NCBI GenBank assembly: GCA_017508505.1
Contig: JAFVYT010000006.1
Coordinates: 1-13,708 of the forward strand
DNA: 13,708 nucleotides
Direction of reading: 5' to 3'
Source of the DNA: Clostridia bacterium
Lineage (GTDB): Bacteria; Bacillota_A; Clostridia; Oscillospirales; SIG627
A program made the translations under genes and the position numbers. Numbering within the stretch: position 1 is the first letter of the stretch; every line of letters starts with the position of its first letter. The notes below the pieces were generated by a model that worked only from the letters and a program-made list of their open reading frames with translations, did no database searches and was not told the DNA's origin. Below, one piece after another: positions 307 through 13,484 of this stretch.

Positions 307-350
307 CAAAAGGAAAGGAGGCGACCGTCGGTCACCTCCCGCTTTTTTTA
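307..350 (-). terminator. Intrinsic terminator of the nanA-kinase operon
   Basis: On the minus strand a 10-bp stem GGAGGTGACC / GGTCGCCTCC (317-339, one G-U wobble, 3-nt loop) is followed by the U-rich run TTTCCTTTT (307-316). It starts about 14 nt after the kinase stop codon. The other strand also has a T7 run after the hairpin (343-349), so it could act both ways, although the plus-strand stem carries one C-A mismatch. Confidence 0.75.
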
Positions 351-352
351 AA

Positions 353-1324
353 TCACCCCAGACCGTATTCCTTTTTCATCGTCTCCAAAACCTCAGTCAA
401 GGTCGGAACGGAGGAAATCCCGCCGAGCTTTGCGGTGGACAGTCCCGCGCCGGCGCAGGCAAATGCCGTGATCTTAACAAGCTCCTCTTCCCCGAGCTCC
501 TCCGGCGCCTTGCCAAGCTGAAGAATCTGAAACAGCGCACTGCCGCCGAAGATGTCCCCTGCTCCCGTGGTGTCGATCCGAACCACGTCCTTCAAGCTGG
601 AAACCCTTCCCTCGGCCTTGGCATTCTTGAAAACGCATCCGTCCCCGCCACAGGTCACGAAAACCAGCTTTACGGGGAAATTCTTCAAAATATAATCTGC
701 GCCCGCCTCAGGCCCGAGGCCGAAGAGGAACTCCACCTCGTCTTCGCTGATCTTCACCACGTCCGCCTGACCGAGGCCCCAGAGAAGCTGCTTTTTTGCC
801 TCGTCCAAATCCTTCCAGAGGGGCTTGCGCAGGTTGGGATCGTAGGTAATCAGCTTTCCCTTTTCCTTGGCATATGCCACGGCACGGTAGGTTGCGCTGC
901 GGGCAGGCTCGTCTGTCAGAGAAAGGGTACCGAAATGGAAGACCCTCGCCTCATCGATCAGACCCGTGTCGATCTCCTCGAAGGAAAGGCAGGTGTCCGC
1001 ACCCGGCTTTCTGGCGAAGGCAAACTCCCGTTCTCCCCCCTCGGATAGCGTCACGAAGGCAAGGGTGGTAAAGACCTCGTCCGAAAGCACCAGCCCACGG
1101 GTCTCGATGCCCGCAGACTTCAGGGTTTTCGCCAGAGTCCTGCCGAAGGTGTCACCTCCCACCTTCCCGATGAGGGCGGCACGGGCACCGTACCCGGCCA
1201 GAGCCGCAAGGAAGTTAGCGGGGGCACCGCCGGGGTGTGCCGCCATGGTGGGATATCCGTCCCCGTCGGTGGAGACGCAGGTAAAATCAATGAGCAATTC
1301 GCCCAATGCCACAACGTCGATCAT
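353..1324 (-). CDS. PfkB-family sugar kinase, fructokinase-like
   Basis: A 323-residue cytoplasmic kinase that probably phosphorylates a free hexose, most likely fructose to fructose 6-phosphate with ATP. The N-terminal signature PGGAPAN (31-37) and GKVGGDTFG (53-61) is the sugar-binding half. DTTGAGDIFGGS (251-262) carries the anion hole and the catalytic Asp257. YDPNLRKPLW (161-170) is typical of ScrK-type fructokinases. Length is normal for the family. I chose the ATG at 1324 rather than a start 54 nt upstream: GGAGAG lies just before it, the N-terminus aligns with relatives (MIDVVALGELLIDF), and it forms an ATGA overlap with the epimerase stop, indicating translational coupling. It is the last gene of the nanA operon. 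Substrate is inferred; 2-keto-3-deoxygluconate or another ketose is possible, but the fructokinase motifs and the neighbouring aldose-ketose isomerase favour fructose. Confidence 0.88.
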   Translation of the reverse strand: MIDVVALGELLIDFTCVSTDGDGYPTMAAHPGGAPANFLAALAGYGARAALIGKVGGDTFGRTLAKTLKSAGIETRGLVLSDEVFTTLAFVTLSEGGEREFAFARKPGADTCLSFEEIDTGLIDEARVFHFGTLSLTDEPARSATYRAVAYAKEKGKLITYDPNLRKPLWKDLDEAKKQLLWGLGQADVVKISEDEVEFLFGLGPEAGADYILKNFPVKLVFVTCGGDGCVFKNAKAEGRVSSLKDVVRIDTTGAGDIFGGSALFQILQLGKAPEELGEEELVKITAFACAGAGLSTAKLGGISSVPTLTEVLETMKKEYGLG

Positions 1325-2211
1325 ATTTTTCTCTCTCCAATCAAAGTAATGGCCCAAGCGCGCTCCAGAACCTCCCAAGCGGGCAGGGTCAGAAGATCGC
1401 TTTTACAGCTGATTTCCTCCTCCACCCCCTGACGGGCAGGCAGAGAGCACCAAGGCTCCAGGCAGACGTACTCCGCTTTTGTTTTCGGCCAATGCCAAAT
1501 GCCGAGATACGGCATATCGGGGTAGGACAGCGCCACCCCGCGACCGCTCTTTTTCGAGCGGAGGGTGACCCCTCTTGCCATATTCTTCAGAATCACCGCA
1601 TCCTCGTCGAAGAGACCGTGCCGCAAAGGCAGGATGCGCTCCTCCTCCAAGGGATAGGGCTCGTCCCGATCGCTCAGGAACACGTCCTCGGTAAAGCCCA
1701 CGCGGCAGGGCCGTGCGGGGTCGGAAAACTCCAGCACGTAATCCTCGAAGTCCTCCCCGTCCGAAAGCGGTACCCGAAAGCCCGGGTGCCCTCCCAGACC
1801 GAAGAACATCCGCTCCGTGCCGTGGTTCTCCACTCGGTAGACGATCCGCAGACTCCGTCCGATCCACTCGTAGGTGACCGTGAAGGCAAAGTCAAAGGGA
1901 TACATCTCCCGGGTTCTTTCATCGGAGGCAAGACGAAGCACCAGCTTCCCCTCGGACTCTTCCGCAAGGGAAAACTCGCCGGATGCCGCAAAGCCGTGCT
2001 GGGGCAGGGCAAAAAAGCGACCCCGATGGCGAAAGCCTCCGTTCCAAAGCCTTCCCACCCAGGGAAAGAGGATGGGAGAGGTCTCGGGCCAGATGGCGGG
2101 ATCCGCCTGCCAAAGATACTCCACCCCCTCACGGTCGCGGATGGAGCGCATCTCTGCGCCGCGGGAATCCACCTCGAGAGTCGCCGCGGCGCCCGTTACC
2201 AAACAGCGCAT
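1321..2211 (-). CDS. Aldose 1-epimerase (mutarotase), LacX-like
   Basis: A 296-residue cytoplasmic mutarotase that should interconvert alpha and beta anomers of an aldose. Family landmarks are the FPWVGRLWNGGF segment (49-60), HGFA with His72, GGHPGF with His142 (one of the two histidines expected to protonate the ring oxygen), and CLEPW with Glu252 as the catalytic base. The pattern fits the LacX-type branch better than classical GalM. The ATG at 2211 is chosen over a start 60 nt upstream because GAGGGAG precedes it directly and the upstream option would overlap the isomerase by about 50 nt. That ribosome binding site overlaps the isomerase stop codon, and the gap between the genes is 7 nt. 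The stop overlaps the kinase start. Next to a mannose/lyxose isomerase it probably supplies the anomer that the isomerase or aldolase needs. The exact sugar cannot be read from sequence. Confidence 0.88.
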   Translation of the reverse strand: MRCLVTGAAATLEVDSRGAEMRSIRDREGVEYLWQADPAIWPETSPILFPWVGRLWNGGFRHRGRFFALPQHGFAASGEFSLAEESEGKLVLRLASDERTREMYPFDFAFTVTYEWIGRSLRIVYRVENHGTERMFFGLGGHPGFRVPLSDGEDFEDYVLEFSDPARPCRVGFTEDVFLSDRDEPYPLEEERILPLRHGLFDEDAVILKNMARGVTLRSKKSGRGVALSYPDMPYLGIWHWPKTKAEYVCLEPWCSLPARQGVEEEISCKSDLLTLPAWEVLERAWAITLIGERKI

Positions 2212-2218
2212 CGCTCCC

Positions 2219-2908
2219 TCAGTCCCTTGCAGGGGGATACTCGTTGCAAAGCAAACGATAAGGAGGCTCATCCTCCTCGATGGCGGGGAAGCGCCCCATA
2301 GGAGGCAGGAAGCGATTGTCGCAGTTGTCGTCGTTACACTGGCTCACCTCGCCCAAAAGGACGGGACCCGTGCCCGGTTCCACCTCAAAGTCGTGATAGA
2401 GGTACTGGGGGATGTAAATGCTTTCCCCGGGGGTCAGGCGGATCTGGGTGCCTGCAGGCACCGTATAGGCTCTGCCGTCGGTGTAGACGGTAACGTCGGA
2501 CTCCTTGTCCAATTCCTCATTGGGCAGAGAGTTATAAACGCGGATGAGCACGTTGCCGCCGCCGCGGTTAATGATGTCCTCCGTCTTGTACCAATGGAAG
2601 TGATTGGGGGAGTACTGGCCCTCTTTCAGATAAAGGAGCTTTTCCGCGTAGACCTTCTTGTACTTGTCGGCCATTTTCATATTGCCGTTGCGGATGGTGA
2701 TGAGGGAAAAGCCCATCTTGTCAAAGTCGCCCATTCCGTAGTCGGTGATATCCCAGCCCAGCATACAGTCGCGCACCTCGTCGTACTCGTGACCCTTGGT
2801 CGCCCATTCCTCGGGGGTAAAACGGCAGAAGGGAGGCAGGTAGCAATGCTCCCTTTCGCACATCGCCTCCAGCTCGCGCAGGGCGCGGTTGATCTCGGAT
2901 CGTTTCAT
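2219..2908 (-). CDS. D-lyxose / D-mannose ketol-isomerase
   Basis: A 229-residue cupin-fold, metal-dependent isomerase of the D-lyxose isomerase family (EC 5.3.1.15; includes Providencia enzymes and E. coli O157 z5688). Characterised members convert D-lyxose to D-xylulose and D-mannose to D-fructose. The metal ligands are visible in HFHWYKTEDIINRGGG: His103, His105 and Glu110, with His172 in YLYHDFE completing the site. Length and N-terminus (MKRSEINRAL) match the family. The ATG at 2908 follows GGGAGGATAACAC, a good site with 7-nt spacing, 19 nt after the nanA stop. Between a sialic-acid-type aldolase and a fructokinase-like kinase, the mannose-to-fructose reaction makes more sense than lyxose metabolism, but this is inference. 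No signal peptide. Confidence 0.88.
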   Translation of the reverse strand: MKRSEINRALRELEAMCEREHCYLPPFCRFTPEEWATKGHEYDEVRDCMLGWDITDYGMGDFDKMGFSLITIRNGNMKMADKYKKVYAEKLLYLKEGQYSPNHFHWYKTEDIINRGGGNVLIRVYNSLPNEELDKESDVTVYTDGRAYTVPAGTQIRLTPGESIYIPQYLYHDFEVEPGTGPVLLGEVSQCNDDNCDNRFLPPMGRFPAIEEDEPPYRLLCNEYPPARD

Positions 2909-2927
2909 GTGTTATCCTCCCGGTGCT

Positions 2928-3806
2928 TCAGTTTGCAAAAATTTCGTCTGCCACGGCGTCCAGCAGAGCCTTCTTCTCCTCGGTGATGGCACCGAAGGGG
3001 GGACGGCATCCGCCGAAGTCCATTACACCGAACTTGGTGAGCAGATACTTGATACCGGGGTTGACCCCTGCGGCAATGAGGGTATCAATGAGGACGTTAA
3101 CCTTGGCCTGCTTTTGAGAAACGGCGGCCTGATCGCCCTTTTCGTATGCCTCGCGGATGGCCTTGTATTTGCCGGGCATCAGGTTGAAGGTGGAGCCGAT
3201 GGCACCGGAAAGCCCGATGGGAAGGGCATTGGCATAAACCTCGTCGTGACCGTTGAAGAGGGTCAGCTCGGGATGGGCTCTGTGGATGCGCTCCAATTCA
3301 AACAGGTCGTAGGAGGTGTACTTCAGACCCTCGGCACCGGAGGCGTCGATGATGGTCTTGATGTTGTCGTGGGTGATGTTCACTCCGGAGAAGGCGGGAA
3401 TGCTGTAGATCACCAGAGGCTTCTGTGCCGCATCGGAAATGGCGGCGTAGTAGGAGGCGATCTCGTCCACGGAGAATTTAAAATAGAAGGGAGGCACGCT
3501 GGAAACGGCGCTGACCCCACAGGAGGCGGCGTGACGGGCAAGATCCACGGCCATCGCGGTACCGATATTACCCACCTGCGCGATGATCGGCACTCTGCCG
3601 TTGACCTCCTGGGTCACGATCTCCACAATGCGCTTTCTTTCCTCACCGGTCATCAAAAAGCACTCGGCGGTGGAGCCGCAAACGTAGAAGCCCTCGGCGC
3701 CGCGCTCAATCTCAAAATTGACCAGTCTCTTGATGGCGTCGTAGTCGATGGAGAAATCCTCGTGAAAGGGAGTGACCAATGCGGGAATAATGCCTTTGAT
3801 ATTCAT
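2928..3806 (-). CDS. nanA: N-acetylneuraminate lyase (class I pyruvate aldolase)
   Basis: A 292-residue TIM-barrel aldolase of the DapA/NanA superfamily, predicted to cleave N-acetylneuraminate (or its relative KDN) into pyruvate and an N-acyl-hexosamine or hexose. The residues follow E. coli NanA closely: GSTAE (44-48) binds the pyruvate carboxylate, Tyr134 sits in YSIPAFSG, the Schiff-base Lys162 lies in GLKYTSYDLFELER, NGHDE (186-190) supplies the Asp-Glu pair, and GAIGSTFN contains Ser205. The KYTSYDLFELER stretch and the NGHDE motif separate it from dihydrodipicolinate synthase. GSTAE has Ala where most lyases have Gly. The ATG at 3806 is preceded by AAAGAGGT at 8-nt spacing; a start 78 nt upstream has no such site and adds a non-homologous tail. 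It is the first gene of the operon, with a long leader and a divergent AraC regulator upstream. Confidence 0.9.
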   Translation of the reverse strand: MNIKGIIPALVTPFHEDFSIDYDAIKRLVNFEIERGAEGFYVCGSTAECFLMTGEERKRIVEIVTQEVNGRVPIIAQVGNIGTAMAVDLARHAASCGVSAVSSVPPFYFKFSVDEIASYYAAISDAAQKPLVIYSIPAFSGVNITHDNIKTIIDASGAEGLKYTSYDLFELERIHRAHPELTLFNGHDEVYANALPIGLSGAIGSTFNLMPGKYKAIREAYEKGDQAAVSQKQAKVNVLIDTLIAAGVNPGIKYLLTKFGVMDFGGCRPPFGAITEEKKALLDAVADEIFAN

Positions 3807-3871: not shown

Positions 3872-3900
3872 AGAATAAGACCATAAGGGGTCTTTCCCAA
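3872..3900 (-). promoter_or_regulatory. Possible proximal promoter of the nanA operon
   Basis: On the minus strand TTGGGA (3895-3900), a 17-nt spacer and TATTCT (3872-3877) form a weaker promoter 65 nt upstream of the nanA start. The spacer contains the perfect inverted repeat AAGACC-N6-GGTCTT, which could be an operator or an RNA hairpin. Each box matches consensus at only four of six bases. Confidence 0.3.
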
Positions 3901-3950: not shown

Positions 3951-3980
3951 ATTATAAGGCAGAGATCGGGGGCTTGTAAA
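3951..3980 (-). promoter_or_regulatory. Promoter of the nanA operon
   Basis: On the minus strand TTTACA (3975-3980), an 18-nt spacer and a perfect TATAAT (3951-3956). Transcription would start near 3944 and give a leader of roughly 140 nt before the nanA ATG. The -35 abuts the presumed control region of the divergent AraC gene, so one regulator site could serve both directions. Confidence 0.6.
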
Positions 3981-4037
3981 TAGATGAAACTGTCAAAAAA
4001 ATGTACCGATTCTGCTATTTTTCAAAAAGGAGCTGCT

Positions 4038-4877
4038 ATGGACGTTTTACGTGACCTGCAGGAGGCGGAATATCGCCTGATGGGCTCTGACCCGAAGAAC
4101 GCCACTCCCCATTTTGCCGACGCGGTGGAATTGATCCAGACCTGGTCCGAGGGAGGCTATTTTCTGGTGAACGGGCGGGTCTTTCCCATCAAGCCCGGCT
4201 CCCTTTTCCTCATCGACGCCAACAACCGACACTACTCCAACCCCATCAACCCCGCCCGCTACAATCGGAGCAAGGTCATCCTGAACGCCGCCGCCTGGCG
4301 GGAGCTTCTGGAATTCTGCTCCCTGAGTGAGAGCTTCTCCCCCGCCTTCAGTCTGTTCGGCGGCGCGGCGTGGGATCTTTCTCCCGAAAGCGGAGAGGCC
4401 CAGCGCATCGATCGCGCCTTTGCCTCCATCTGCGAGGCCGTGCGGGAGGGAGGCGAGTTCGCGCACCTTACCGTGCTGGCGGCGCTGGCAGGAATTCTGG
4501 CGGAAATCACCCGCCACCCGGACGAGAGCGAGGCCTATCCCCTGGGCCAAAAGACGATCCACTCCATGGCCCGCTACATCGGAGAGCGGCTGGACGGCAC
4601 GAGAGACGTCTCCATGGAGGAGATCGCCCGAGAGCTTCATATGAGCCAGTCCCACGCCTTTCACCTGTTCCGCACCGTCACGGGCAAGAACCTGACCGAC
4701 TATCAAACGGAACGGAAAATTGCCGAGAGCAAGAAGCTTTTGACCACCACCGAAATGCGCGTCGGGGAGATCGCCCGCACCGTGGGCTATCGGGACCCCT
4801 CGGTATTTTGCCGAAGATTTAAGCAGTACACAGGCACCACCCCCTTAAAATACCGCAAGGAAAACCGCCCGAAATAG
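4038..4877 (+). CDS. AraC-family transcriptional regulator
   Basis: A 279-residue regulator with an N-terminal cupin-like effector domain (roughly 25-85; YFLVNGRVFPIKPGSLFLID is the beta-roll part), a helical linker, and a C-terminal DNA-binding domain with two helix-turn-helix units: one at about 192-212 (VSMEEIARELHMSQSHAFHL) and one at about 241-262 (GEIARTVGYRDPSVFCRRFK). The end TGTTPLKYRK is the usual AraC signature tail. I place the start at 4038 because AAAAAGGAG precedes it at proper spacing; an in-frame ATG at 3984 has none. It is divergent from nanA with about 230 nt between start codons and is transcribed away from that operon, so it is the likely local activator, with a sugar or sialic acid as effector. 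The ligand cannot be read from the sequence. Confidence 0.88.
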   Translation: MDVLRDLQEAEYRLMGSDPKNATPHFADAVELIQTWSEGGYFLVNGRVFPIKPGSLFLIDANNRHYSNPINPARYNRSKVILNAAAWRELLEFCSLSESFSPAFSLFGGAAWDLSPESGEAQRIDRAFASICEAVREGGEFAHLTVLAALAGILAEITRHPDESEAYPLGQKTIHSMARYIGERLDGTRDVSMEEIARELHMSQSHAFHLFRTVTGKNLTDYQTERKIAESKKLLTTTEMRVGEIARTVGYRDPSVFCRRFKQYTGTTPLKYRKENRPK

Positions 4878-4976: not shown

Positions 4977-5384
4977 TCACTTCATCAAATCGTCCGCGAG
5001 GCGGAGGATCTCCGGGGCGATCCTCGCCCTTTCTCTTTTGAGGATGCGGTTATAGACGGGGTAGGCCACGCCGGCAAGCAGGATCCCAACAAGGCCGAGG
5101 GGAATCCCGATCAAAAGCGCCGTTTTGTCGGAAAGGCCGATGATCCCTCCGATCTCGGTCATCACAAGGCTCATCCCCATCCCCATGATCAGCGCTCCGA
5201 GGACTCCCAGCACAAGGGAAACGGACGTCGCCCGTTTCGTTGCGGTCGCATCGAGGCGGCGCAGCTGTGCCATCTTATCCTCGGCCCCTTCGGGAGCAGC
5301 GTATTTTTCTCGGATCGCCTTGATTTCCTCCCGATCCCTTGCGGAATAGGTATAATGGAACGTTTCTTTTTCTTTATTCTCCAT
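4977..5384 (-). CDS. Small two-helix membrane protein, unknown function
   Basis: A 135-residue protein with a charged N-terminal region (1-52), two hydrophobic helices (about 54-76 and 88-111) and a basic, probably cytoplasmic tail. The central motif IMGMGMSLVMT (66-76) ends helix one. The protein encoded at 8297-8662 shares IMGxGMSLVMT, an IRxxY segment and LxxLD before the helices, P-x-Y after helix two, and a similar C-terminus ending in D-x-x-M, so the two are paralogues. The start follows AAAGGAG with 6-nt spacing, and only 3 nt separate it from the stop of the preceding membrane gene, so it is the last gene of the two-component operon. I cannot assign a function. I dimly recall similar short proteins labelled dihydropteridine reductase, but nothing visible supports an enzyme. 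Confidence 0.8.
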   Translation of the reverse strand: MENKEKETFHYTYSARDREEIKAIREKYAAPEGAEDKMAQLRRLDATATKRATSVSLVLGVLGALIMGMGMSLVMTEIGGIIGLSDKTALLIGIPLGLVGILLAGVAYPVYNRILKRERARIAPEILRLADDLMK

Positions 5385-6273: not shown

Positions 6274-7341
6274 TCAAATCCTCCGAATCGTTACGGCAAA
6301 GACGGTGCCGACACCCACGGCGCTTTCCACGCGGATCTCGCCCTGCATAATGTCAATGACCCGCTTGACCAGCGCAAGGCCCAAGCCGTTTCCCTGAACG
6401 GAATGGGAGGGATCACCCTGATAAAATTTTTCAAAAATGTGCGCCCCGACCTCGGGGGTCATCCCACAGCCGGTGTCGGACACCTTGACAACGGCGTGAT
6501 GCTCGGTGGCCGTCAGGGTTACGGTCACCTTGCCCCCGGACGGGGTGAATTTAAAGGCATTGGAGAAGAGATTGCTCCAGACGTGGCCGAGCAGCTCGGC
6601 ATCCGCCTTGACCCGCACACCCTCGGCAATGTCCGTTTCGATTTCGATGTTTGCTTTTTCCCATACGCTTTCGTACTGCAAGAGGCACTCGCAAAGCTGC
6701 TCGGACAGATCAAACTCCGTGATCTCGGGATAGATCTGCTGGTTCTCCAGGCGATTGAGCTTTAAGATATTGGTCATCATATCCGCCATACGGCGGGAGC
6801 CGTCGGTGACCCCCTTGGCATACTCGAGCCGCTTTTCTTCGCTCAGGTCGGGGGCCTGCAGGAGGGTTCCGTAATTCTGCATCACCGCAAGGGGCGTTTT
6901 CATTTCGTGGGATACGTTGGCGATAAAATCCGTGCGCAGGGTCTCCACGCTGCCGAGCTCCTCTGCCATTTGATTGATTGCCATAGCAATTCGGTTAAAG
7001 CCCTCCATACCGGAATTTTGCATCGGCTGAATGCGCACGGAAAAATCGCCGGACGTAATCCTTTCGGTTGCTTCTGTAATGATTTTGGTTGGCCGATCCA
7101 CCATGATTTTGCGGCGAAGGGAATCCGCAAGCTGAAACAGAAGCGTAATCAGAATCACGTTCCAAAAGGTTATTTTGGCGGCGGTGGCGATGTTGTCCCC
7201 ATTCAGCACAAGCCCCATCGTGTCGGCCAGAACGCGCAAAAACAGCATCATACAGCAGGATACGATGAACCCCACCGTCAAGAAAAACAGCAGGAAGCTC
7301 GTAACCTTTTCCAAAATTCTCTTTACCGTCAGCCTTTTCAT
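6274..7341 (-). CDS. Membrane sensor histidine kinase (HAMP, HisKA, HATPase)
   Basis: A 355-residue sensor kinase that should autophosphorylate and pass phosphate to the response regulator encoded just upstream. There are two transmembrane helices (about 14-37 and 56-76) with a loop of only some 18 residues between them, so there is no real extracellular sensor domain. A HAMP linker follows (about 78-133), then the dimerisation domain with phospho-acceptor His145 in VSHEMKTP. The ATPase domain has the N box (Asn257, Asn261 in NLFSNAFKF), G1 DTGCGM (289-294), F box FEKFYQ (303-308) and G2 GNGLGL (317-322). The start forms an ATGA overlap with the regulator stop. The short loop means the signal probably comes from within the membrane or through a partner; the coupled eight-helix protein is a candidate. 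The cognate signal is unknown. Confidence 0.93.
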   Translation of the reverse strand: MKRLTVKRILEKVTSFLLFFLTVGFIVSCCMMLFLRVLADTMGLVLNGDNIATAAKITFWNVILITLLFQLADSLRRKIMVDRPTKIITEATERITSGDFSVRIQPMQNSGMEGFNRIAMAINQMAEELGSVETLRTDFIANVSHEMKTPLAVMQNYGTLLQAPDLSEEKRLEYAKGVTDGSRRMADMMTNILKLNRLENQQIYPEITEFDLSEQLCECLLQYESVWEKANIEIETDIAEGVRVKADAELLGHVWSNLFSNAFKFTPSGGKVTVTLTATEHHAVVKVSDTGCGMTPEVGAHIFEKFYQGDPSHSVQGNGLGLALVKRVIDIMQGEIRVESAVGVGTVFAVTIRRI

Positions 7342-8009
7342 TTGATCACCGCCTTGTAGCCGAGTCCGTGAACGGTCATGATCTCAAAATCCTCACAGTC
7401 GGCCAGCTTGGAGCGGAGCTTGGTCATATACACGTCCACGGCACGGGGAGCCGTTTCGGTGTCCGCATCCCAGAACTCGTCCATCAGCTGGGTTCTGGTA
7501 AAGGTCTTTTTGGGATAACTGAGCAATTTATAAAGGATACTGAACTCGCGGTTGGTAAGGGAGATTTCCTCATCGCCGAGATAGGCAGTATGCTCGTCGG
7601 CATCCATTACAAAACTGCCGATTTCGAGCTTACGGGAGGAGGCGATCTTGGCACGACGGAGAAGGGCCCCGATGCGTAAAAACAGCTCGTCCGGGTCGAT
7701 GGGCTTTACCATATAATCGTCCACGCCGATGCGAAAGCCCCTTTGCTTAGAGGCGATGTCGTCCCGGGCGGTCATAAAAAGGATCGGGATCTCCTCGTTC
7801 AGCTCCCGTACGCTTCGGGCAAATTCAAAGCCGTCCACACCGGGCATCATAATGTCCGATACGATCAGATCGAACATATTTTCATACATCGCGTCGTAGG
7901 CATCGGTCGCATTCAGACACCCCGTAGCCTCATAGCCGCTGTGATTCAAAAAGGAGCAAACGGTCTTGTTCAGCTCCCTGTCATCCTCCACAACCAATAT
8001 CTTAAACAC
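7338..8009 (-). CDS. OmpR/PhoB-family response regulator
   Basis: A 223-residue regulator. The receiver domain has the acidic pair in VVEDD, the phospho-acceptor Asp in LIVSDIMMPG (residue 52 from this start), Thr in FMTARDD and Lys in VKPID. The C-terminal winged helix (about 128-223) contains LTNREFSILYKLLS and AVDVYMTKLRSKL, the recognition-helix region, and ends in VHGLGYKAV. I prefer the GTG at 8009. GGAGG (8017-8021) is 7 nt from it but only 1 nt from an ATG at 8015, which is too close for initiation; the ATG would add two residues (225 aa). It is first in the operon with its kinase. The promoter upstream carries 11-bp direct repeats that fit autoregulation. Confidence 0.93.
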   Translation of the reverse strand: MFKILVVEDDRELNKTVCSFLNHSGYEATGCLNATDAYDAMYENMFDLIVSDIMMPGVDGFEFARSVRELNEEIPILFMTARDDIASKQRGFRIGVDDYMVKPIDPDELFLRIGALLRRAKIASSRKLEIGSFVMDADEHTAYLGDEEISLTNREFSILYKLLSYPKKTFTRTQLMDEFWDADTETAPRAVDVYMTKLRSKLADCEDFEIMTVHGLGYKAVIK

Positions 8010-8046
8010 AAGCATACCTCCGCAAGCTTACGGTAATCTTTCCTTT

Positions 8047-8296: not shown

Positions 8297-8662
8297 TTAT
8301 TTGCTCATGATCTGATCGCTGAGCGCAATGATTTTATCGGCATACTTCTTGCGGCGGGAGGCAAGGAGCTTTTTATAAATGGGGAAGTTTACGATTGCCA
8401 TCAGCATCCCCACGACCCCGATCACAACGCCGTAAAGCATCGGACTTCCGAGGCGGAGGACTTCTGCAAGGTCGGTCATCACAAGGCTCATCCCAAAGCC
8501 CATAATAATAGCGCTGATGCTGCCGAAGACGTAGGCAAACACGTTCGCGGGACGCTTCACCTTGGCATCCAGCCTCTTGAGCTCATCCAGAGCGGTCTGT
8601 TCCTTTTCGGTGTACTGCGTGCGGATCTTCTGTACGAGAAAATTCTGATCGTTTTGATTCAT
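8297..8662 (-). CDS. Small two-helix membrane protein, paralogue of the one at 4977-5384
   Basis: A 121-residue protein with a charged N-terminal helix (1-38), membrane helices at about 41-63 and 74-96, and a basic tail KKLLASRRKKYADK. The motif IMGFGMSLVMTD (53-64) is shared with the protein encoded at 4977-5384, as are IRxxY, LKRLD, NFPIY-type and terminal SDQIM segments. A TTG at 8671 would extend it by three residues, but AGAGGT directly abuts that codon and sits 9 nt from the ATG at 8662, so ATG is chosen. It is the first gene of a two-gene unit with the 36-residue ORF. Its promoter has the same repeat-plus-spacing layout as the two-component operon, so it is probably a target of that regulator. 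Function unknown. Confidence 0.82.
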   Translation of the reverse strand: MNQNDQNFLVQKIRTQYTEKEQTALDELKRLDAKVKRPANVFAYVFGSISAIIMGFGMSLVMTDLAEVLRLGSPMLYGVVIGVVGMLMAIVNFPIYKKLLASRRKKYADKIIALSDQIMSK

Positions 8663-8696
8663 AGCGGGCAACCTCTTTCTTTTCTTTTGTGCGTGT

Positions 8697-10240: not shown

Positions 10241-11857
10241 ATGACAAAAATTCCCTTCAAGCGCTTCGGCGTAATGCCCGATATGAGCCGCAATGCGGTG
10301 ATGGACGTACCGACCCTCAAGCGCTTTGCCGACCTGATTTCCGATATGGGCTACAACGCCCTCTTCCTTTACATCGAGGATACCTATGAGATCCCCGGGG
10401 AGCCCTACTTCGGCCATCACAGAGGCCGCTACAGCCAAGACGACATCCGCGAGATCGTCGCCTACTGTGAAACCCTCGGGATGGAGGTCATCCCCTGCAT
10501 TCAAACCCTGGCACATCTGGAGTGCATCTTCAAGTGGAAGCAGTATCAGCATATCCGCGACACGGGGAACATCCTCTTGGCGGACTGTGAGGAGACCTAC
10601 GCGCTCATCCGCAAGATGCTCCGCAGTGTGGCCTCCTGCTTTAAGTCCGGGGTGGTGCACGTGGGAATGGACGAGGCCCATATGCTCGGCCTCGGGAAGT
10701 ACCTGGACAAAAACGGCTACAAGCCCCGCTTCGAGATCCTGAAGCGCCATCTGGAAAAGGTGTGCGAAATGGCAAAGGAGGAGGGACTGGAGGCCAACAT
10801 CTGGGCCGATATGTTCTTCCGCGTCTCCAACGGCGGCCAATATTATATGAAGAATCCCAAGGTGGAGCCCGAGCTCTTCGGCGAGCTGCCCGAGAACCTT
10901 TCCCTGACCGCTTGGGACTATTACCGTGCGGACAGACGGCTGGTGCGCGGGATGATCCGCGGCCATCAGGCCTTCGGCAAGGACGTTTGGTATGCAGGCG
11001 GCATCTGGACCTGGAAGGGCTACGCCCCCGACAACCGCTTCTCCATCCGCTGCTCCAAGGTCTCCATTGAGGAGAGCATCAAGGCAGGGGTGGAAAACTA
11101 CTACCTGACCATGTGGTGTGAGGCGGGCGGCGGCACCTCCCGCTTTATGGGTCTGCCCGCTCTGTACGCCTGCGCCCGCATCGCCCAAGGGGAAACGAGT
11201 ATGAAGAAGATCGCCTCAGAGTTCGAGGCAAAATACGGCATTCCCTTCGCCCGCTTCATCGATCTGGATCTGACCGAGCGCAAGGAGGGTCTCTTCTCCC
11301 ACGGCGGCGTGGTGACCAATCCCGAGACCTATCTGCTCTTCAACGACCCCCTTCTGGGCAAATTCGACAGCAGCGTGGCGGGGAACGAGCGCGCCTTCTA
11401 CACCGCCTACGCCAGACGGCTCTCCAAATTCCGCAACCACCCCGAGTTCGGTTATCTCTTCCGCTCTCAGGCCGCTCTGGCCCGCACCCTCTCCCGTAAG
11501 GCTGAATTGACCGTGAAGGCAAGAAGGGCCTACCTTGACGGGGACAAGGCCGCCATGAAGGAGCTTCTGGAGAAGGATTATCCCTACGTTTTGAAGCATC
11601 TCAAGGAATTCATCACCGCCTTCCGCGCCATGTGGCTGTATGAGAACCGCCCTCAGGGGCTGGAGGTTCAGGAGGCTCGCCTCTGCGGCCTTTACGGACG
11701 CATCACCTCTGCCAAGGCACGGCTGGAGGATTGGCTGGAGAACGGCACCCGCATCCCCGAATTGGAGGAAGAGGTTCTGAACTTCCGCCTGACCGTCACC
11801 GACCGTCACATATTCCAGGACGGCTGGATCAACCACGTCACCGCAGGCCGCCACTAA
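10241..11857 (+). CDS. GH20 beta-N-acetylhexosaminidase, GcnA-like, copy 1
   Basis: A 538-residue cytoplasmic glycoside hydrolase, predicted to remove terminal beta-linked GlcNAc or GalNAc from oligosaccharides. The TIM barrel starts at residue 1 without the usual N-terminal accessory domain. DMSRN (14-18) carries the substrate-binding Arg17 of strand one, and VVHVGMDEAH (138-147) corresponds to the family H-x-G-G-D-E motif, with Asp144 as polariser of the substrate acetamido group and Glu145 as acid. The second glycine of that motif is Met. Aromatic binding residues follow in LTAWDYYRAD and GGIWTWKGYAPDNR. The last 190 residues or so are mainly helical, as in GcnA-type enzymes. No signal peptide, so the substrate must be imported. 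The ATG follows AAAAGGAG at good spacing. A paralogue starts 19 nt downstream. Exact substrate unknown. Confidence 0.85.
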   Translation: MTKIPFKRFGVMPDMSRNAVMDVPTLKRFADLISDMGYNALFLYIEDTYEIPGEPYFGHHRGRYSQDDIREIVAYCETLGMEVIPCIQTLAHLECIFKWKQYQHIRDTGNILLADCEETYALIRKMLRSVASCFKSGVVHVGMDEAHMLGLGKYLDKNGYKPRFEILKRHLEKVCEMAKEEGLEANIWADMFFRVSNGGQYYMKNPKVEPELFGELPENLSLTAWDYYRADRRLVRGMIRGHQAFGKDVWYAGGIWTWKGYAPDNRFSIRCSKVSIEESIKAGVENYYLTMWCEAGGGTSRFMGLPALYACARIAQGETSMKKIASEFEAKYGIPFARFIDLDLTERKEGLFSHGGVVTNPETYLLFNDPLLGKFDSSVAGNERAFYTAYARRLSKFRNHPEFGYLFRSQAALARTLSRKAELTVKARRAYLDGDKAAMKELLEKDYPYVLKHLKEFITAFRAMWLYENRPQGLEVQEARLCGLYGRITSAKARLEDWLENGTRIPELEEEVLNFRLTVTDRHIFQDGWINHVTAGRH

Positions 11858-11876: not shown

Positions 11877-13484
11877 ATGGATCGAATCTCCTTCAAGCGC
11901 TTCGGCGTGATGCTGGATATGAGCCGTAACTCCGTGATGCGGCCCGACGCACTCAAGGACTTTGCCACGCTTTTGCGCCAAATGGGCTACAACACCCTGC
12001 TTCTCTACACCGAGGACACCTACGAGATCCCCGGGGAGCCCTACTTCGGCCATTTCCGCGGGCGCTACACCGCCGAGGACATCCGCGGGATCGTCGCCCA
12101 TTGCGAAGGCCTCGGGATGGAGGTCATCCCCTGCATTCAGACGCTGGCGCACCTTGCCACCTACCTGAAGTGGCGGCACACCGCCCCCTTCAGGGACTGC
12201 GGGGACATCCTCCTTGCGGAGTCGGACGAGACCTACGCGCTCATCCGCAAAATGCTCCGCGGGGTGAAGGCCGCCTACAAGTCAAGGCACGTGCACGTAG
12301 GGATGGACGAGGCACACCTCATCGGCTTGGGACAGTATTTAAAGAAACACGGGTACACCGATCGCTTCGGCATCCTCTCCCGCCATCTGCAGAAGGTCTG
12401 CGAAATGGCACGGGAGGAGGGGCTGGAGCCCAATATGTGGAGCGATATGTTCTTCCGCTTGGCAAACGGTGGAGTCTACTCCCTGGACCGTCCGAAGCTC
12501 GATCCCGATCGGATCGGTCCTCTTCCCGAGGATCTGAATCTGACCTATTGGGACTACTACTCCACGGGCAAGCGCCGCTACCGCGCCATGTTCCGTGCCC
12601 ACAAAAGGCTCACCGACCGCATTTGGTTTGCGGGGGGCATCTGGACCTGGAAGGGCTGGGCTCCCGACAACCGCCATTCCGTGAACACCTGCCTGCCGGG
12701 GCTTGCGGTAGCCGCTGAGGAGGGGGTGGAAAACGCCTTCGTGACCCTCTGGGGGGACGACGGCGGGGAATGCTCCCGCTTTGCGGCACTTCCCTCTCTG
12801 TTTGCCGTGGCGCGCTTTGCCGCGGGTGAGACGGACAAAAAGCGCATCGCAGAGCAATTCGAGGAGTGCTTCGGCATCCCCTATCGCGCCTTTTTGGAGC
12901 TGGATCTCAAGCTCGAAAAGGATAAGGTGGCCAACCCCGAAAAATACCTGCTCTACAACGACCCCTTTTTGGGACTTTGCGATTCTACGGTCTACGGTAC
13001 TGAGGACGGCTTCTACCGCCGTGCCGCCCGCCGTCTCCGTCGCTATGCGAAACATCCCCGCTTCGGGGCGCTCTTTGCCTCGCAGGCCGCCCTTGCCCAA
13101 ACCCTTTCCTACAAGGCACTCCTTGGGAAAAAGACCAGAGAATGCTATGTGCGCGGCGACCGCGAGGGAGGCAAGGCGCTTCTGCGGGACTACGGTCTCG
13201 CCATTCGGGGTCTTCGGGACTTCATCGGAAAATTCCGCACTCTCTGGCATTGGGAGAACCGCCCCCAGGGCTTTGAGGTTCAGGAGGTTCGCCTCGGCGG
13301 CCTTTTGGAGCGCCTGCAGTCCTGCAGAGTACGCCTTGCGGATTGGGTGGAAAACGGCACCGAGATCCCCGAGCTGGCCGAGCCCTGCCTCGACTTCTTC
13401 GGAGGCGGCACCACCCTTGCCCCGGGTCACTTCCGCCACACCGCCTACGAAAAAATGTACACCCCCGGCCAACCGCCGAAATAA
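11877..13484 (+). CDS. GH20 beta-N-acetylhexosaminidase, GcnA-like, copy 2
   Basis: A 535-residue paralogue of the preceding gene along its whole length; by hand alignment 42 of the first 60 residues are identical, with lower similarity later. It keeps the same landmarks: DMSRN (14-18), VHVGMDEAH with Asp144 and Glu145, LTYWDYYSTG, GGIWTWKGWAPDNR and the helical C-terminal region including ENRPQGFEVQEVRLGGL. The two proteins differ around residues 94-110 (after IQTLAHL), in the GGDDGG-type loop (WGDDGGECSR against WCEAGGGTSR), and in the loop after LELDLKLEKDK, which is shorter than in copy 1. Such loops may tune specificity for GlcNAc versus GalNAc or linkage. AAAGGAAGG precedes the ATG and only 19 nt separate the genes, so they are co-transcribed. 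No signal peptide. Both copies look intact and catalytically competent. Confidence 0.85.
   Translation: MDRISFKRFGVMLDMSRNSVMRPDALKDFATLLRQMGYNTLLLYTEDTYEIPGEPYFGHFRGRYTAEDIRGIVAHCEGLGMEVIPCIQTLAHLATYLKWRHTAPFRDCGDILLAESDETYALIRKMLRGVKAAYKSRHVHVGMDEAHLIGLGQYLKKHGYTDRFGILSRHLQKVCEMAREEGLEPNMWSDMFFRLANGGVYSLDRPKLDPDRIGPLPEDLNLTYWDYYSTGKRRYRAMFRAHKRLTDRIWFAGGIWTWKGWAPDNRHSVNTCLPGLAVAAEEGVENAFVTLWGDDGGECSRFAALPSLFAVARFAAGETDKKRIAEQFEECFGIPYRAFLELDLKLEKDKVANPEKYLLYNDPFLGLCDSTVYGTEDGFYRRAARRLRRYAKHPRFGALFASQAALAQTLSYKALLGKKTRECYVRGDREGGKALLRDYGLAIRGLRDFIGKFRTLWHWENRPQGFEVQEVRLGGLLERLQSCRVRLADWVENGTEIPELAEPCLDFFGGGTTLAPGHFRHTAYEKMYTPGQPPK

Follow-up and report, generated by a model that had tools for sequence, protein, structure and literature searches.

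A four-gene operon in a Clostridia bacterium proposed to serve KDN catabolism through mannose and fructose

Which substrate is served by an operon that joins a sialic acid aldolase to an aldose isomerase, an aldose epimerase and a fructokinase-like kinase? Such an operon lies in a stretch of 13,708 nucleotides of contig JAFVYT010000006.1 (assembly GCA_017508505.1, Clostridia bacterium), the whole of which is called the window. On its minus strand, from position 3806 to 353, genes for an N-acetylneuraminate lyase (NAL)-type aldolase, a PF07385 isomerase, a PF01263 aldose epimerase and a PfkB kinase follow in succession. A preliminary description had read them as one operon for the catabolism of the deaminated sialic acid 2-keto-3-deoxynononic acid (KDN) via mannose and fructose. 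Our analysis gives about an even chance to the catabolism of KDN, or of sialic acid pools containing KDN, through mannose and fructose. The four genes are:

2928 to 3806, minus strand: NAL-type class I aldolase, first operon gene, proposed KDN lyase (PF00701, 8e-74)
2219 to 2908, minus strand: D-lyxose/D-mannose isomerase, proposed to convert D-mannose to D-fructose (PF07385, 7e-98)
1321 to 2211, minus strand: aldose 1-epimerase family protein, proposed mannose/fructose mutarotase (PF01263, 6e-22)
353 to 1324, minus strand: PfkB sugar kinase, fructokinase-like (PF00294, 8e-51)

The Pfam E-values of the operon proteins range from 6e-22 to 7e-98, so the four family assignments are not due to chance; these matches and the coordinates bear out the families and the single operon described earlier. 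With the start codons chosen here, which are not fixed (the epimerase could instead start at an ATG at 2271 and the aldolase at 3884), 19 bases separate the aldolase and isomerase genes, 7 bases separate the isomerase and epimerase genes, and the epimerase and kinase genes overlap by 4 bases (ATGA). A purine-rich stretch precedes each of the four genes.

In the proposed pathway, the NAL-type aldolase would split open-chain KDN into pyruvate and D-mannose, the epimerase would speed anomer exchange, the isomerase would convert D-mannose to D-fructose, and the kinase would phosphorylate fructose, most simply to fructose 6-phosphate, with an upstream AraC protein sensing the substrate. We favor KDN because this pathway gives work to all four enzymes; with N-acetylneuraminic acid (Neu5Ac) as the substrate, the isomerase and the kinase would be idle. 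The PF07385 family acts on 2-hydroxy aldoses (mannose, lyxose and L-ribose), and the isomerase would therefore fit mannose, the product from KDN, and not N-acetylmannosamine (ManNAc), the product from Neu5Ac. The analysis establishes the families, the conserved catalytic residues, the operon layout, the absence of recognizable ManNAc genes in 13.7 kb, and the recurring linkage of isomerase with kinase, of isomerase with epimerase and, rarely and loosely, of NAL with isomerase; we infer what the substrate is, which way the reactions run, what the kinase makes and that all four enzymes work in one pathway.

The aldolase scores 310.6 bits against NF003164 (N-acetylneuraminate lyase), above the cut-off of 281, and 277 against TIGR00683 (nanA), under the cut-off of 382. 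Its best structural matches are E. coli-type NAL structures (~1e-73). It retains S47, T48, E50, Y137, K165, T167, D191, E192 and S208 (E. coli numbering), which comprise the catalytic residues and those that bind the sugar tail. K165 is the Schiff-base lysine, D191, E192 and S208 bind the tail, and Y137, S47 and T48 are further positions characteristic of NanA. The glycerol tail of the substrate is identical in Neu5Ac and KDN. The relatives closest to the window aldolase, at 70–76% identity, are found among archive proteins (P0122-P0129), and none in the best 80 genome loci exceeds 56%. One archive protein (P0154, 308 aa) is 99% identical to the window aldolase over 61% of the length and also carries a PF00150 piece; it is perhaps an assembly chimera or a rearranged copy.

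Published work assigns roles to NAL residues 165, 191, 192 and 208 (PMC3014015) and to Tyr137 (PMC4016182). Campeotto et al. pair E192 with O8 and O9 of the glycerol tail, and D191 and S208 with hydroxyls of a bound inhibitor (PMC3014015). Positions 49, 190 and 252 are Ala, His and Asn in the window aldolase and Gly, Tyr and Phe in E. coli. Among the 120 listed homologues, which include the window protein itself (P0121), 57 have the Ala/His/Asn set, as do 19 of the 21 proteins P0121-P0141; it is seen in none of 100 aligned locus rows. This set cannot decide between KDN and Neu5Ac, because E. coli NanA cleaves both with similar high efficiency (PMC13220900), in line with the earlier statement that Neu5Ac lyases accept KDN, and because group 1 and 2 NALs show nearly full activity with mannose. 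His190 and Asn252, in place of Tyr190 and Phe252, were considered as proof of a KDN preference and dropped, since the acetamide is not contacted by the protein in group 1 and 2 NALs (PMC4016182). A known parallel for KDN breakdown by an NAL-family aldolase, hence to pyruvate and mannose, is Sphingobacterium, for which a review of gut microbes cites a Kdn-specific aldolase and a KDNase (PMC10017367). Asp50 is named as important there, whereas the window aldolase keeps Glu at E. coli position 50, between Ala49 and Cys51; the Sphingobacterium numbering may differ.

The isomerase matches PF07385 with 326.7 bits (cut-off 20.8) and the solved D-lyxose isomerase 3kmh/3mpb at 1.2e-64; the latter presumably comes from E. 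coli O157. Its identity to ECs_5070 of E. coli O157 Sakai is 47%. The kinase, with 173.6 bits against PF00294 (cut-off 25.8), belongs to the PfkB fold family, and its best solved relative is the fructokinase 5ey7 (4e-45).

Two further known systems resemble the operon in part. ECs_5070 lies between a PfkB kinase and a class II aldolase on one side and an ABC transporter on the other, and by gene order Sakai ECs_5068-5073 (L170) is the lmuKAIZYX cluster. In E. coli O157, LmuI converts mannose to fructose and LmuK is active as a fructose kinase; with the regulator of the cluster overexpressed, the cluster allows a manA deletion strain to grow on mannose (PMC10128022). The route from mannose to fructose and on to a PfkB kinase, as first proposed for the window, has thus been demonstrated elsewhere, and the gene pair recurs without NAL. 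The window shares with lmuKAIZYX a PF07385 isomerase beside a PfkB kinase, but it includes neither a class II aldolase nor an ABC transporter among its scanned genes, adds an NAL aldolase and an epimerase, and holds a kinase of a different PfkB branch (no BLAST match to ECs_5068 at 1e-3); a cluster of the lmuKAIZYX type, with isomerase, orthologous kinase, class II aldolase and ABC transporter, is therefore not what it encodes. A copy of the O157 trio of PfkB kinase, class II aldolase and isomerase is seen in another Clostridia stretch (L141, 3853-6463), with no ABC transporter among the called neighbors. With E. coli K-12 nanATEKQ (L165), the window shares an NAL aldolase as the first catabolic step. 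In contrast to that operon, the window has no relative of nanT, nanE, nanK or nanQ, and the aldolase product would enter an aldose-ketose isomerase and a PfkB kinase.

The downstream genes recur in other genomes. Isomerase neighborhoods were taken as 29 stretches drawn from 26 of 62 matching genomes, mostly the best-scoring, with genes called by a simple codon-score caller that misses some (such as the kinase and the mannosidase of L154), so that absences there are weak. A relative of the window kinase adjoins the isomerase in L133, L135, L136, L138, L147, L148 and L149 and lies one gene off in L154, which makes 8 of the 29 stretches and 7 of the 26 genomes; identity is 69% in L135, 63% in L148 and ~40–45% in five others, and the L133 relative scores 499 bits. 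Epimerase relatives stand directly 3´ of the isomerase in L140 and L143 (350 and 346 bits, against 692 for the self match). A glycoside hydrolase (GH) family 2 beta-mannosidase stands beside the isomerase in L151, L152 and L154, its mannosidase domains confirmed in L151. The downstream module thus exists without NAL and partly meets mannose-releasing enzymes, and with isomerase, kinase and epimerase recurring in pairs, a mannose substrate is plausible in part of the family. The same occurrence of the module without NAL would be expected if the aldolase gene had joined an unrelated mannose/fructose module by chance rearrangement and shared no pathway with it, and the search for the four-gene order returned no second copy. 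The short gaps and the apparent single transcription unit speak against such an accident, as do looser NAL-isomerase associations on two other NAL branches, and we consider it very improbable.

The absence of ManNAc genes was examined in the window and in related genomes. None of the 13 called genes in the 13.7 kb has a match at E 1e-8 to E. coli NanE, NanK, NanQ, NanT, NagA, NagB, NagC or ManA, which upholds, for the window, the earlier statement that ManNAc kinase, ManNAc-6-P epimerase and GlcNAc-6-P deacetylase are lacking; nanE and nanK accompanying nanA, as in the canonical nan operon, are not found there. Nor do homologous clusters consistently carry nanE or nanK: a NanE relative lies in the flanks of 4 of 96 NAL loci (L043, L066, L083 and L094), 22 bases to 3.4 kb from NAL, as far as the caller finds the genes, and a NanK-like gene is near NAL in L066 and in L157, a longer stretch of one of the same genomes. 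In L066, NanE is 0.9 kb from NAL and the NanK-like gene adjoins NAL, and in L094 NanE is 22 bases from NAL; these two are ordinary Neu5Ac-type clusters among the more distant NALs. In a genome-wide NanE search, for which control genomes gave the expected result, no NanE match was found in four genomes with NAL and isomerase on one contig (G008 with L012, G016 with L028, G251 and G415). Likewise, none of five genomes of one order that hold both NAL and isomerase has NanE over the cut-off (G343 has a sub-threshold match).

The main rival to KDN catabolism is the joint use of sialylated N-glycans, in which the aldolase would convert Neu5Ac to ManNAc for unlinked genes to process, the isomerase, epimerase and kinase would use freed mannose, and the operon would be grouped by substrate. 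NAL enzymes cleave Neu5Ac, and NAL loci close to that of the window stand beside sialidase-like BNR genes and ABC transporters (L001, L005, L009, L013, L014 and L015), all six in genomes with NanE. Tandem GH20C hexosaminidase-like genes occur further along the window, the beta-mannosidase gene adjoins the isomerase gene in L151 and L152, and in L159 four genes, for GH2, AraC, NAL and BNR proteins, stand in a row. Yet the window has no recognized ManNAc gene, the operon itself has neither a sialidase nor a mannosidase, and NanE is full-length in just 19 of 285 genomes of the order (23 over the cut-off). In addition, the 50 genomes listed with a NanE match include no member of the nearest family, which has 22 genomes, although not all 22 were necessarily searched. 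We judge this alternative unlikely, though the strongest of the rivals.

Linkage of NAL with the isomerase is rare outside the window: among 80 NAL loci, with flanks of at most 10 kb and often less, it was seen in two close relatives, L012 and L028, with the isomerase ~8 kb downstream of NAL on the same strand. The run in these rabbit-gut Lachnospiraceae (L012, 1619-17451, and L028) comprises an aldose epimerase, a GntR-type regulator, NAL, an ABC transporter, a sialidase-like BNR protein, an alpha-galactosidase, a GH51 protein, the PF07385 isomerase and a GH2 protein; it could be a second sialic-acid-like locus or a plant cell-wall locus. Distant structural matches of its BNR protein include 2xcy, which we take to be the Aspergillus fumigatus Kdnase, ranked behind bacterial sialidases. 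In one order, NAL is found at E 1e-60 in 16 of 394 genomes, the isomerase in 62 and both in five. The linked NALs of the window, of L012/L028 and of G251 fall on three separate branches of a 59-row tree, so the linkage was gained or lost more than once; the linkage label is no more clustered on the tree than in shuffles.

The L012/L028 run also bears on a further alternative, in which the aldolase would use another 2-keto-3-deoxy acid, such as 2-keto-3-deoxyoctonate (KDO), and the isomerase and kinase would handle the released pentose or other aldose. Its BNR protein, alpha-galactosidase and GH51 arabinofuranosidase (a set checked in L012) could fit plant cell-wall side chains. At C3, however, D-arabinose from KDO is unlike the mannose, lyxose and L-ribose of the isomerase family, the tail-binding pair D191/E192 is kept, and the kinase is closest to fructokinases. 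On the other side, KDO and KDX are further substrates of E. coli NanA and human NPL (PMC13220900). On balance, we hold this alternative to be improbable.

Several observations weigh against KDN catabolism as the role of the operon. NAL sequence does not separate KDN users from Neu5Ac users. The kinase reaches 185 bits against its best NCBIfam model, the fructokinase equivalog NF006957, for which the cut-off is 450. The isomerase is also below its equivalog (NF051472, 262.6 against 350), a model whose name, LyManIsomGneg, suggests a Gram-negative scope. Because both proteins fall below curated cut-offs, 'fructokinase' and 'mannose isomerase', the names first given to the two genes, are family-level names. 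No KDN-releasing sialidase, sialic acid transporter or anomerase is recognized in the window. Elsewhere, the isomerase serves other modules, such as that with PfkB and a class II aldolase in L141, and further stretches show different neighbors. In G251, where NAL and the isomerase are ~1.5 kb apart, two other genes stand between them, one on the opposite strand, and in G415 the isomerase is ~12 kb from NAL on the same contig, among other genes. The four-gene order did not turn up again in the best 80 of 233 NAL loci, in 394 genomes from one order, in 22 genomes from the nearest family, in 391 genomes from the class (at E 1e-75) or in viral contigs; this search took NAL or isomerase above an E-value and then the neighbors, and a weaker or unlinked copy would escape it. 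Instead of the same four-gene cluster in a second organism, related genomes offer pairs and looser NAL-isomerase links. In the nearest family, an NAL-family match at E 1e-40 is present in six of the 22 genomes, with 33–41% identity.

The distribution of NanE counts on the same side. NanE occurs somewhere in 7 of the 16 genomes with the closest NALs. In L001, L005, L016 and L019, the NAL flanks contain NagB- or NagA-like genes. G210, one of the five order genomes with NAL and isomerase and without NanE, has a NanK-like ROK gene (96 bits, 509 aa) 2 kb from NAL (L157). NanE and the isomerase are not mutually exclusive: among 92 NAL-bearing genomes, each is present in 27, with both in nine, NanE alone in 18, the isomerase alone in 18 and neither in 47 (Fisher p 0.62). 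This count omits 10 genomes with partial or weak isomerase matches above the Pfam cut-off (G428, G015, G009, G010, G013, G434, G444, G437, G469 and G448), with which the raw isomerase tallies are 18/40 and 20/54; five of the 92 were chosen for holding the isomerase, and without those five p = 0.29. This independence, together with the 47 genomes that have neither, disfavors a simple model in which each NAL has either NanE or the isomerase as its partner. An exclusion of NanE by the isomerase had been striking in a few rabbit Lachnospiraceae (NanE in L010 and L015, isomerase in L011, L012 and L028) and failed over the 92 genomes. The 47 genomes lack NanE over the cut-off and a full-length PF07385 isomerase (AGE-type epimerases were not searched and draft gaps are possible); many NAL-like aldolases may feed other routes. 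In L003 (9097-10873), whose genome gave no match to NanE or to the PF07385 isomerase, a 304-aa protein overlaps the NAL start, and ABC transporter genes and a NanQ relative follow downstream; by eye the protein resembles a TIM-barrel sugar isomerase and may be another NAL partner.

The families, the layout and the pathway chemistry first proposed hold, and KDN is the putative physiological substrate of the aldolase. The elements around the operon fit its transcription as a unit:

4038 to 4877 (also open from an ATG at 3984), plus strand: divergent AraC-family regulator, likely regulator of the operon (PF12833, PF02311)
3951 to 3980, minus strand: promoter-like site 5´ of the operon (TTTACA-18-TATAAT, 11 of 12 consensus matches)
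316 to 340, minus strand: terminator-like hairpin 3´ of the kinase gene (11-pair stem, T-rich tail)

The promoter and terminator calls are consensus matches only, with 9 promoter-like sites against 2.0 in shuffles and 8 terminator-like sites against 6.7. Relatives of the AraC regulator (89–159 bits) are 5´ of NAL and divergent from it in L002, L003, L051 and L055. Further along the window, the two tandem GH20C-type hexosaminidase-like genes are on the plus strand (10241-11857 and 11877-13484). Two small membrane-protein genes that look alike by eye (4977-5384 and 8297-8671, minus strand) stand on either side of a two-component system (6274-8015) and of a 294-aa membrane protein that has no Pfam match. 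By YchF, the nearest of 197 genomes searched is G204 (86%), and the next is at 72%.

Each step of the proposed pathway is known elsewhere; the combination of the four was not found described, and our literature search, with most subscription papers outside its coverage, returned no description of such an operon. Microbial sialic acid work concerns mainly Neu5Ac, and aldolase specificity in gut microbes has mainly been studied toward it, with one KDN-specific enzyme cited, according to a review (PMC10017367). In its boldest form, which we regard as conceivable but doubtful, the operon would be dedicated to KDN in uncultured gut-type Clostridia, the A49/H190/N252 NAL subclade would have shifted its specificity off N-acetylated sialic acids, and the ManNAc route would give way to a mannose-fructose route with late phosphorylation. 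If KDN is the substrate, a complete operon from KDN to fructose phosphate would serve as a genetic marker, open to testing, of KDN use by gut communities, and it would point to a way for some genomes that have NAL and lack NanE to use a nonulosonic acid.

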